A DNA stretch of 64,000 nt. It comes from Erythrobacter ani (GTDB lineage: Bacteria > Pseudomonadota > Alphaproteobacteria > Sphingomonadales > Sphingomonadaceae). This document shows positions 16,840 through 23,869 of the stretch, piece by piece; within the stretch, counting starts at the first letter, position 1; each line of letters starts with the position of its first letter. Made by a program: the position numbers and the translations under genes. The notes under the pieces were generated by a model, which searched no databases, had not been told where the DNA came from, and saw only the letters and a program-made list of their open reading frames with translations. The stretch lies in NCBI RefSeq assembly GCF_019204025.1, contig NZ_JAGSPB010000002.1, positions 868,001 to 932,000 of the forward strand, written 5' to 3'.

Positions 16840-17466
16840 TTAAACTTCGCGCGGGTCGCGATAATCGCTTGCCATGAAAATACGCTGACGGCGTTCGCTC
16901 CGATAGACGAGGCCGCTTGCGACCCTGTTGCCTGCTGTGGTGTAATTCAGCTCTTCGGCGATTCGATCATAATCAGCCGCCGCAATCGCGCGATTGAGTC
17001 GGGGGCTTTCGCTTTCGGACAGATTGCCTTCGCCGACATTGAACGCGAGATCGACGAGCGCATCGAATTCGTGCTGGTTGATTGCCAAATCGCCGATCAG
17101 TCGCTGAACAACTTCTTCTGCCTTGCCGATATCGGTTTCCAGCAATTGAAGCGCCCGTTCATGTGAAATGGTGTCGCCCATGCCCAGATTGTCTTCCGGA
17201 AGCACTAGGTGCCCCACGCCCACCGTCGGATACCCTGCGACGTCGCGGTAGACATCATAGCGGACACCTTCTTCCTCTATCATCGCCTCTATCAGTTGAT
17301 CGCTCGCGGTAAGGTCGCTTGCATCACGCCGCTCTGCCGGGTCGATCAGATCATAACCCGCACCATCCTGCGTCCCGCCAACCTGCGATTGAGCAGAGAT
17401 TGGCACTGCGCTGATCGCCAACTGCGAGGTTCCCGAAAGCGCGACTGCACTGACGCCGAGCGCCAT
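16840..17466 (-). CDS. T4-type lysozyme (GH24), first-ATG version
   Basis: 208 aa from the first ATG. The catalytic triad of phage-T4-type lysozymes is exact: E66, D75 and T81 (E-x8-D-x5-T) in the EGVRYDVYRD...PTVGVGH region, so muramidase activity is likely. A hydrophobic segment right after the ATG could be a membrane anchor or signal. The frame has no stop for another 95 codons upstream, and the ATG has no ribosome site, so this is probably an internal methionine (see the next entry). No phage genes lie nearby; the protein looks like a resident cell-wall enzyme. Confidence 0.85.
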   Translation of the reverse strand: MALGVSAVALSGTSQLAISAVPISAQSQVGGTQDGAGYDLIDPAERRDASDLTASDQLIEAMIEEEGVRYDVYRDVAGYPTVGVGHLVLPEDNLGMGDTISHERALQLLETDIGKAEEVVQRLIGDLAINQHEFDALVDLAFNVGEGNLSESESPRLNRAIAAADYDRIAEELNYTTAGNRVASGLVYRSERRQRIFMASDYRDPREV

Positions 17467-17751
17467 GGCCGTCCGTTTGCGTTTCCGTTTTGGTGTACGG
17501 CTCGAACGTGCAGCTGTAAGATGTTGCGTGGCGACATGAGCCGTCCGGCTCCTGGCGCGGCGCTTGGCCCAGCGTTCGCGAAAGTGCTTCAGGAACCGTC
17601 TCTTGCGCAGGCGCCTGGCGTTATCGCCGTCGAGATTGAGTTGCTGCTTCGAGGAGGCAGTTCGCGCTGTAGGCGTTCTCTTCGAGACAGGGTTGGGTGA
17701 TTTTGAAAGGGGGCGTACTTGTGTGTTGGTATTGCCGGTTTGGATTGTCAG
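17467..17751 (-). other. Open N-terminal extension of the lysozyme, non-ATG start
   Basis: The lysozyme frame continues upstream without a stop to 17763 and encodes a strongly basic, Arg/Lys-rich, helix-forming segment typical of a cytoplasmic N-terminus before a membrane anchor (for example LRKRRFLKHFRERW and KRKRKR). The frame contains no ATG, GTG or TTG. AAGGAG (17754-17759 on the minus strand) is followed after 2 nt by CTG (17749-17751) and after 8 nt by ATC (17743-17745). So the gene starts at a rare codon, or its ATG was changed to ATC. Confidence 0.55.
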
Positions 17752-18013
17752 TTCTCCTTGGAGTCACCGACGTTCTGCATAAGCGTTTCAAACAATACCT
17801 ATGATGCCGATCGGCGCTCGATCATTTCCAGATTTCCGATGCAACGAAGAATAACGTGATGCATGAGGCGAAAATCTATTTATTTTCAGTTCACTATATC
17901 AACGGCTGAGGCGCGTCTCAAGGTCCACGCTTCATCGCCCATGGGGCACGGTCCAGGCCGAACCGCCCCGATGCACAGGTCAGGAATTGTCGGGCTGTAC
18001 GCTGATATCAGCG

Positions 18014-21677: not shown

Positions 21678-22964
21678 ATGTCTGCTACCATCCACCAACT
21701 TCACAATACCCCGCCAATCGCAGGGTTCATCCGTGTCGGGCATATCGACCACAAATGGATCGAGGAGCGATTGTCTGCAGGGCGGATGCCCTACCGTCGC
21801 TTCGTCTTCGATGCGGCGCACGTCGATAAACAACGCGGGCTTTTGGGTGCACTCAAGAAAGCTGGCCATGAGGTCATACTCGATACTAACTTTGCTGAGC
21901 TTTGCTCCGTTGGAAGGTTCAATGGTGCTGCTTCGGTTTTACCTTGGGCCAATCAGGATCGTCCTTGGCAAGTTGAAGATCTTGGAGGCAATCGCGCGCG
22001 TTTTCTAGCCTCACAGATGGCTGAGTTTGCCGTCGAGAGAGATGTGGATGCCGTTCTCTCACCTTCGCAGTTGATTGAAGTTAAGGGAAGCGGGCCGTCG
22101 ATCGATGCCAATTTAGCCGAAGCGTTACGTGTCGCGCTTGATGCAAGCGGTGGTGGAGGAATTGCATTGGATTACCAAGTCATCACGACCATGAATTTGC
22201 TTCGTGATGATGAATTTCGACGCGATGTCGCGAAAATTTGCGATCAGGTTGATTGTGAAAACGTTTGGTTGCGCGCTTCTGGATTCGATGCGCAGAGCAC
22301 TGGCGCGGCCACCAAACGATTTGTCGAGAATATGGCGGAGCTGCATGGCGCTGGTAAACCGTTCGTCGGTGATATGATCGGCGGACTGCCGGCCATCGGC
22401 GCGGCTGCCGCAGGTGCGATCGGAGCGATCTGTCATGGGTCTGGCGGCAGGGAGTCATTCCGGATTGCAGATTATCGCAAGATTCCAACTGGCGGCGGCG
22501 GAGGCGGTAAACGTCGCGTCTTTCTTGCTGGATTGGGCCGTTGGGTGAGTGAGGAGCAATTCGAGAAGATTGTTGGCACGAAGGGAGCCAAGTCGAAACT
22601 TTTCTGTCGAGACAAGGGTTGTTGCCCACAAGGCCGCGATGACATGATCGACGAGGCGAAGGGACACTTCCTCAATCAGAGAAACGCTCAGATCAGAGAG
22701 TTGTCACGTATCCCAGAAGAACGGCGTCTAGACCATTTCTTGGCTCAGCAGCTTGGAGCCGCATCGAGTTTGGCTCGAACGCTTTCGCGTCTCGATTATG
22801 AGGACGACAAGACCGCAGAACTCGTCTCCAATGAGAAAAAGCGTCTTTTCAGAATGGCTGACAGTATGCGGGCTCTTGGCGACAATGCTATCGAAAGCCG
22901 CTCGCTTTCGCCTGTTTTTCGAGGCGGTGGACCTAATGTCGCGGTTATAGCGGGGAGGTCATAA
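21678..22964 (+). CDS. Unknown TIM-barrel-like protein, first gene of the Xre-RES operon
   Basis: 428 aa, not recognised. Regularly spaced short hydrophobic strands and helices (RRFVFDAAH 41-49, HEVILDTNF 64-72, VDAVLSPSQ 123-131, GIALDYQVI 161-169, NVWLRASGF 195-203, KPFVGDMIGG 227-236) suggest an alpha/beta barrel. They are followed by an Ala/Gly-rich loop (about 237-254). After a Gly6 linker (272-277) comes a C-terminal domain with C310, C315, C316 and H330, a possible metal site, loosely like the zinc site of tRNA-guanine transglycosylases. CGGAGGT precedes the ATG. The stop overlaps the next start (TAATG). Base composition is AT-richer than uvrA. Confidence 0.75.
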   Translation: MSATIHQLHNTPPIAGFIRVGHIDHKWIEERLSAGRMPYRRFVFDAAHVDKQRGLLGALKKAGHEVILDTNFAELCSVGRFNGAASVLPWANQDRPWQVEDLGGNRARFLASQMAEFAVERDVDAVLSPSQLIEVKGSGPSIDANLAEALRVALDASGGGGIALDYQVITTMNLLRDDEFRRDVAKICDQVDCENVWLRASGFDAQSTGAATKRFVENMAELHGAGKPFVGDMIGGLPAIGAAAAGAIGAICHGSGGRESFRIADYRKIPTGGGGGGKRRVFLAGLGRWVSEEQFEKIVGTKGAKSKLFCRDKGCCPQGRDDMIDEAKGHFLNQRNAQIRELSRIPEERRLDHFLAQQLGAASSLARTLSRLDYEDDKTAELVSNEKKRLFRMADSMRALGDNAIESRSLSPVFRGGGPNVAVIAGRS

Positions 22965-23302
22965 TGCCTACAGCTGTAGCTGAGATGATCGACCGGCTTA
23001 AGGATCTTGGTGGGCTTCGGGGAACTGATATTGCTAACGTGACGTCCGCTTCTCCAGCAACTGTAAGTCGCTGGGTACAAGGCAAGTTGGTTCCCCAAGC
23101 CAAAACGGAACTATTAATCTCGGATTTGAGATACATTGTTCTAAGATTGAGTGAATTTTATTCGCCAGACGAGGTAAGGATTTGGCTTTATTCGCGTCAT
23201 CGACTTCTTGATGATCAACGAGCTATTGATCTCATACATGATGGGCGGGCCGACGAAGTACTGGAGCTTATTGCAAGTCTGGATGCAGGAGCATTCACGT
23301 AG
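22964..23302 (+). CDS. Xre/MbcA/ParS-type antitoxin
   Basis: 112 aa. The N-terminal part has an HTH (LRGTDIANVTSASPATVSRW, about 17-36). The C-terminal part has the toxin-binding pattern of the DUF2384/MbcA-ParS-Xre family: WLYSRHRLLDDQRAIDLI followed by ...DEVLELIASLDAGAF. Such proteins neutralise RES toxins and repress their own operon. It starts one base inside the stop of the 428-aa gene and ends directly before the toxin ATG. The upstream inverted repeat is its likely operator. Confidence 0.85.
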   Translation: MPTAVAEMIDRLKDLGGLRGTDIANVTSASPATVSRWVQGKLVPQAKTELLISDLRYIVLRLSEFYSPDEVRIWLYSRHRLLDDQRAIDLIHDGRADEVLELIASLDAGAFT

Positions 23303-23869
23303 ATGAGTTCGGGCGATCGAGTGCATGACTACGAACTACTCGACCGCCTAGAAGCGATCGAGGGAACTGAGGTTTCTTCGAGATTTTTCAGGGTCTATCG
23401 TTCTGGCAGGGACCCCACCAAAGGTTACGCGTCCAATGGTCGTTGGAGCAAAGCAAATGAGTTAGAAGTGCTCTATACGGCCGCGACAAGGGAAGGCGCT
23501 TTGGCTGAGATTGGATATCGGCTCTCATTGGAGCCGATCTGGCCCAGCAGGCTCATTCATGAAATCGCAGAACTATCTATCCAATTGGACAATATTTGTG
23601 ATTTGACCGATTTTGGTGAGCTTGAGAATCTTGGAGTTGATATCCGGCGCTACGAGGCCCACGACTACGACGTGACACAATCAATTGCGGCCGCCGCGAG
23701 GTTTCTCGAATTCAACGGATTGCTTGTTCCCAACGCAAGAAATCATTCAACCAATCTGGTGTTGTTTACGGAAATCATTGACTCATCCTCGATTGATTTC
23801 ATTTCTGCGGAGGGTGTCGAATGGAATGCTTGGCGCTCTAAGAATCCCCGACTCCCAAGTCGAGACTGA
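23303..23869 (+). CDS. RES-domain toxin
   Basis: 188 aa. The RES fold pattern is present: FFRVYRSG with R33, NGRWSKANE, LYTAATREGALAEIGYRL with E69, and the closing block GLLVPNARNHSTNLVLF. Known RES toxins degrade NAD+ or ADP-ribosylate metabolic enzymes. The serine usually found in the P-S-x-R block is Asn here (N144), so activity or specificity may differ. Its ATG follows the antitoxin stop with no gap. The antitoxin-before-toxin order is the usual one. Confidence 0.83.
   Translation: MSSGDRVHDYELLDRLEAIEGTEVSSRFFRVYRSGRDPTKGYASNGRWSKANELEVLYTAATREGALAEIGYRLSLEPIWPSRLIHEIAELSIQLDNICDLTDFGELENLGVDIRRYEAHDYDVTQSIAAAARFLEFNGLLVPNARNHSTNLVLFTEIIDSSSIDFISAEGVEWNAWRSKNPRLPSRD

Follow-up and report, generated by a model that had tools for sequence, protein, structure and literature searches.

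Locus and reading frame

The window, a 64,000-nt stretch of the Erythrobacter ani genome, carries on its minus strand a frame that, read from an ATC codon (16840..17745), would encode a putative 301-aa membrane-targeted GH24 (PF00959) lysozyme. The frame reads TGA(17766-17764)-CTC-CAA-GGA-GAA-CTG-ACA-ATC(17745-17743)-CAA-ACC and onward to a TAA stop at 16840. The in-frame TGA (17764..17766), present also in the sister species, closes the frame 18 nt 5' of the ATC, and a Shine-Dalgarno (SD) sequence, AAGGAG (17754..17759), lies 8 nt 5' of the ATC and 2 nt 5' of an in-frame CTG (17751-17749). There is no in-frame ATG, GTG or TTG between this TGA and the ATG at 17466, which is residue 94 counted from the ATC, and a search upstream of that ATG (CGGACGGCC-ATG) found no SD. 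The first-pass annotation had described the stop-free frame without a usual start, the SD with its two spacings, the first ATG lacking a ribosome site, and a very basic helical upstream segment, and all of these were confirmed.

The basic extension (residues 2-93, 17467..17742) has a net charge of +25 and ends in KRKRKRTA; AlphaFold2 predicts a confident helix within it at residues 39-81 (pLDDT ~87-93). A weakly hydrophobic segment follows (residues 94-111, MALGVSAVALSGTSQLAI, 17413..17466), starting at the first in-frame ATG and likely a signal or membrane segment. Given the codon frequencies of these regions, a run of 93 codons without ATG, GTG or TTG has a ~2.6% chance, so that the gap by itself is weak evidence and the weight lies on its recurrence among orthologues. 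The gene region held no Rfam elements, and folding of the leader gave no conserved structure, the window hairpin (z -1.6) being missing in two orthologues (L005 and L008). A 10-codon upstream ORF (uORF; 17746-17780, with its ATG at 17780, i.e. at -35) closes with a TGA 2 nt short of the ATC; it occurs only in the window locus (L003) and is not kept in the sister species.

The C-terminal domain matches PF00959 (E=1.3e-29, 103.5 bits against the Pfam cut-off of 22.3), its nearest solved structure by both sequence and fold is the prophage muramidase 6et6 (TMt 0.87), and the catalytic E-D-T (glutamate-aspartate-threonine) motif is in place, its pattern recurring in 78 of 81 orthologues. By domain score, catalytic motif and fold this is a chromosomal GH24-type lysozyme. 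It shares domain, motif and fold with the GH24/PF00959 endolysins and the SpmX muramidase, but lies outside any recognisable prophage and has a long basic N-terminal tail before its hydrophobic segment. SAR endolysins of the R21/P1 Lyz type were also compared: the 18-residue segment is weakly hydrophobic as in those, but is preceded by the 93-residue basic tail, and model confidence is low there. Identity with SpmX (17.8 against 700 bits) or BgtA (52.1 against 315 bits) was rejected, both scores falling far short of the NCBIfam equivalog cut-offs.

The start position among orthologues

The lysozyme family is patchy: of 114 genomes from the genus, 14 have it. With more orthologues from wider family and order samples, 81 loci were analysed. 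A scan of genome contigs gave 4 loci only. The closest orthologue of the window gene belongs to the sister species E. rubeus KMU-140 (L004/L034, an independent record), where the TGA, SD, 8-nt spacing and ATC are all identical and the position of the window CTG reads CCG. This identity removes the reading of the ATC as a sequencing error at 17743-17745, which the first-pass annotation had named as a refutation, and the CCG removes the CTG half of its proposal of AUC or CTG initiation; the AUC half gained support from the SD and ATC/ATT kept in the sister and clade and from the protein-level selection after the ATC described below.

Eleven Erythrobacter orthologues form a supported clade (SH-aLRT 98). 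Eight of them carry ATC at the start position (L003, L004, L005, L006, L008, L009, L011, L012), L007 and L013 carry ATT, and L010 has ATG with ATC directly after it. Less weight was given to L012 and L013, whose SDs are weaker and whose alignment is poor. Four relatives forming a second group (L014, L015, L033, L081) begin ATC-GTN-CCN, and more candidates with ATC, ATT or ATA (ATH; AUH in mRNA) are L061, L067, L064/L088, L092, L093 and L076. Elsewhere the position is TTG (L044, L057, L060, L062, L079) or ATG, so that the first-pass suggestion of looking in homologues for an ATG at the ATC position is answered by lineage: ATC or ATT in the Erythrobacter clade, with ATG-ATC once, and ATG in some other lineages. 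Within a single genus the same position is ATC (L092), ATT (L093), ATG (L045) or GTC (L096); the last (CAGGAG-CATAAC-GTC-ACA-CCC) is a possible GTC start. The tree holds 7-8 changes between AUH and canonical starts, the start classes having been assigned from the SD, its spacing and homology, in part visually and with judgement calls in some lineages. The sister keeps the SD of the window and the other ATH orthologues have sites resembling it; the spacing from SD to start is 8 nt in the window and its sister, and 5-9 nt in most others.

Evidence that the ATH codon starts translation

In-frame stops lie shortly upstream of the ATC in several orthologues: 18 nt (L003, L004), 12 nt (L008), 33 nt (L005) and 6 nt (L081). 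In two orthologues (L008 and L015) the 120 nt before the ATC are free of ATG, GTG and TTG in every frame, and six (L003, L004, L005, L006, L008, L010) have no canonical start between the ATH and the hydrophobic segment, so that a product begun only at ATG would be without the basic stretch and in many cases without the membrane segment too. The first canonical start in several clade species is inside or behind the hydrophobic segment; the ATG at 17466 is shared with L004 and missing from most of the clade.

Between the ATH and the conserved domain, dN against dS is 0.16/0.88 (L006/L009), 0.27/3.2 (L092/L093) and, for the window's own pair (L003/L004), 0.65/2.05. Every indel in the extension is a multiple of three, unlike the leader 5' of the SD, which differs between L006 and L009 by out-of-frame indels. 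Judged by these patterns (dN/dS well under 1, in-frame indels), the extension is a segment that evolves as protein.

Of all codons counted in the Erythrobacter orthologues, ATC is preceded by the best SD energy on average, with dG<=-5 in 37% of 27 ATC against 7.6% of all codons (ATH against the rest, p=0.004). Single-gene SD permutation tests were weak (p 0.02-0.5), so the case rests on comparative evidence; a blind search that took the best SD and then the next codon, whatever it be, was too noisy and was set aside. As in conserved non-canonical AUH or GUC starts, the full-length product lies out of reach of any canonical start, the SD spacing is usable, and comparison indicates that the unusual codon is kept in relatives with the extension translated. 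A start at the AUC is well supported by comparison, and the same comparative evidence supports the start position, translation of the extension and conservation of the AUH class. A conserved internal ATG at about codon 33, lacking an SD, occurs in clade B and some other lineages, and could yield a second, shorter product.

Alternative readings of the start

The first-pass annotation had offered a recent start-loss as its other option, in which an ancestral ATG became ATC, only a short product is made from the ATG at 17466, and the extension is a relic. The ATG that other lineages have at this site, and the sharing of ATG 17466 with the sister, would suit such a loss, but a relic should hardly show protein-level selection in several ATH pairs or retain ATH across a clade, and the proposed replacement ATG has neither an SD nor a general presence in the clade, where the first canonical start can come too late even for the hydrophobic segment. 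We regard the loss of the long product as very improbable; an older change from ATG to ATH in the clade ancestor, with the extension still translated, is possible. Initiation at the CTG is almost certainly wrong: the codon is in frame and 3' of the SD, but at a 2-nt spacing, and most other orthologues, besides the sister with its CCG, have no equivalent. Equally improbable as the start-loss is that translation reaches the frame from a short ORF upstream, by termination-reinitiation at the ATC or by frameshifting. The uORF of the window is suitably placed, but it is absent even from the sister, two orthologues have no codon in the preceding 120 nt at which a uORF could begin, and reinitiation would use the ATC as a start anyway.

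The main rival on purpose accepts the AUC start and sees in the weak codon a product of near-neutral drift, which persists since little enzyme is needed, and no means of regulation. The wandering of the position among ATC, ATT, ATA, TTG, ATG and GTC between genera is what drift would produce, but the Erythrobacter clade has kept ATH almost completely, at dS of ~1 or above and though a single base change restores ATG. This speaks against drift, which we consider unlikely.

A promoter-like element

Upstream of the gene, on the same strand, is a bipartite promoter-like element, TGAAGCGTGGACC-N17-CCGTTGAT (17898..17934), which resembles promoters of ECF sigma factors in its sequence (-35 GGACC, -10 CGTT) and may function as one. 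The 3.15 Mb genome has a single copy of its core, GTGGAC..CGTTGAT, at 17898-17928, and 52 of the 81 orthologous loci have a related element, GAAGCGTGGACC-N16/17-CCGTTGAT, 5' of the gene, in AUH and ATG lineages alike. The distance from CGTTGAT to the start is ~26-55 nt in L013, L092, L012, L005 and L008; if the element is a promoter, the short leaders in several ATH species further limit alternative starts. The EcfG promoter of Sphingopyxis is GGAAC-N16-CGTT with a nearly invariant AAC (PMC7083833). An EcfG (general stress) promoter was rejected for the window, whose GGACC-N17-CGTT differs at -35; among the listed loci GGAAC is found only in L057, L060, L062 and L073.

A probable weak start for a lysozyme, and known parallels

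Translation would begin at the AUC (17745-17743), guided by the AAGGAG 8 nt upstream and presumably with fMet-tRNA, and the 301-residue product would run from a basic, helix-containing tail through a hydrophobic segment (signal or membrane) to the lysozyme domain. Since AUC is an imperfect partner for the initiator tRNA and starts of this kind are known to be disfavoured by IF3, little protein should be made, and more of it once IF3 control is relaxed. We infer the low output and the IF3 dependence by analogy with known non-canonical starts, and infer the purpose of the AUC start as well. We consider it very probable that this AUC, used through the AAGGAG, is a weak, IF3-discriminated start that limits a membrane-targeted GH24 lysozyme. 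The retention of this weak start in relatives probably means that it serves as an inbuilt limit on the lysozyme, most likely kept so that a cell-wall-cutting enzyme stays scarce.

Known conserved non-canonical starts generally lower expression, IF3 dependence having been demonstrated for infC and sigR. The IF3 gene infC starts at AUU, AUC or AUA and is autoregulated, and E. coli pcnB has an AUU start that limits expression. Like infC, the lysozyme gene has an AUH start that follows a good SD and is shared by its relatives, but infC encodes an autoregulated fidelity factor and the window gene a cell-wall hydrolase. The GTC start of Streptomyces sigR is repressed by IF3 (PMC5472188); here too the start is non-canonical and excess product harmful, and one lysozyme orthologue (L096) has GTC at the position, but sigR is a sigma factor with a single codon type, proven experimentally, while the lysozyme start is supported by comparison. 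Staphylococcus cvfC1 (AUU) and ccpN (AUA) give ~10-30% of AUG output (PMC13009471), and Listeria rnhC has an ATC start (PMC13068326). These two cases, rnhC and pcnB share conserved AUH starts with the lysozyme, a limiting effect having been shown for cvfC1, ccpN and pcnB, but they have other functions and experimentally confirmed starts, with extended SDs in cvfC1 and ccpN.

The infC gene starts at ATA in 22 of 22 Sphingomonadaceae genomes checked (L101-L122), typically as AGGAG-N7-ATA-GCC-CGT or a close variant, so AUH codons already serve for initiation in these bacteria; by analogy, IF3 feedback is presumably used in them as in others. The window genome's own infC (L108, at ~300 kb of C2, minus strand) has the ATA start. 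Tentatively, as a possibility with the balance somewhat against it, we suggest that in Sphingomonadaceae the identity of the start codon may act as a dial, adjustable by evolution, for one chromosomal lysozyme: AUC, AUU and AUA would have arisen several times and been selected, tying hydrolase output to the level of IF3, itself set by the AUA-started infC, under a dedicated conserved promoter.

To our knowledge conserved AUH starts have been documented in few bacterial genes. Conserved AUH or GUC starts are known in other genes, and literature searches found no earlier report of this lysozyme or its start, which combines clade-wide conservation with apparent repeated switching between AUH and AUG-type starts. 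Since overproduction of such an enzyme could harm the cell, the idea of a weak start as a safety catch is directly testable. Gene finders that accept only ATG, GTG and TTG would truncate or misplace the protein, losing the first 93 residues with the basic tail and, in some species, the hydrophobic segment too.

Elsewhere in the window, at 22964-23869, an Xre/MbcA/ParS-like antitoxin (just under the Pfam cut-off) is directly followed by a RES-domain protein, likely a toxin-antitoxin pair.
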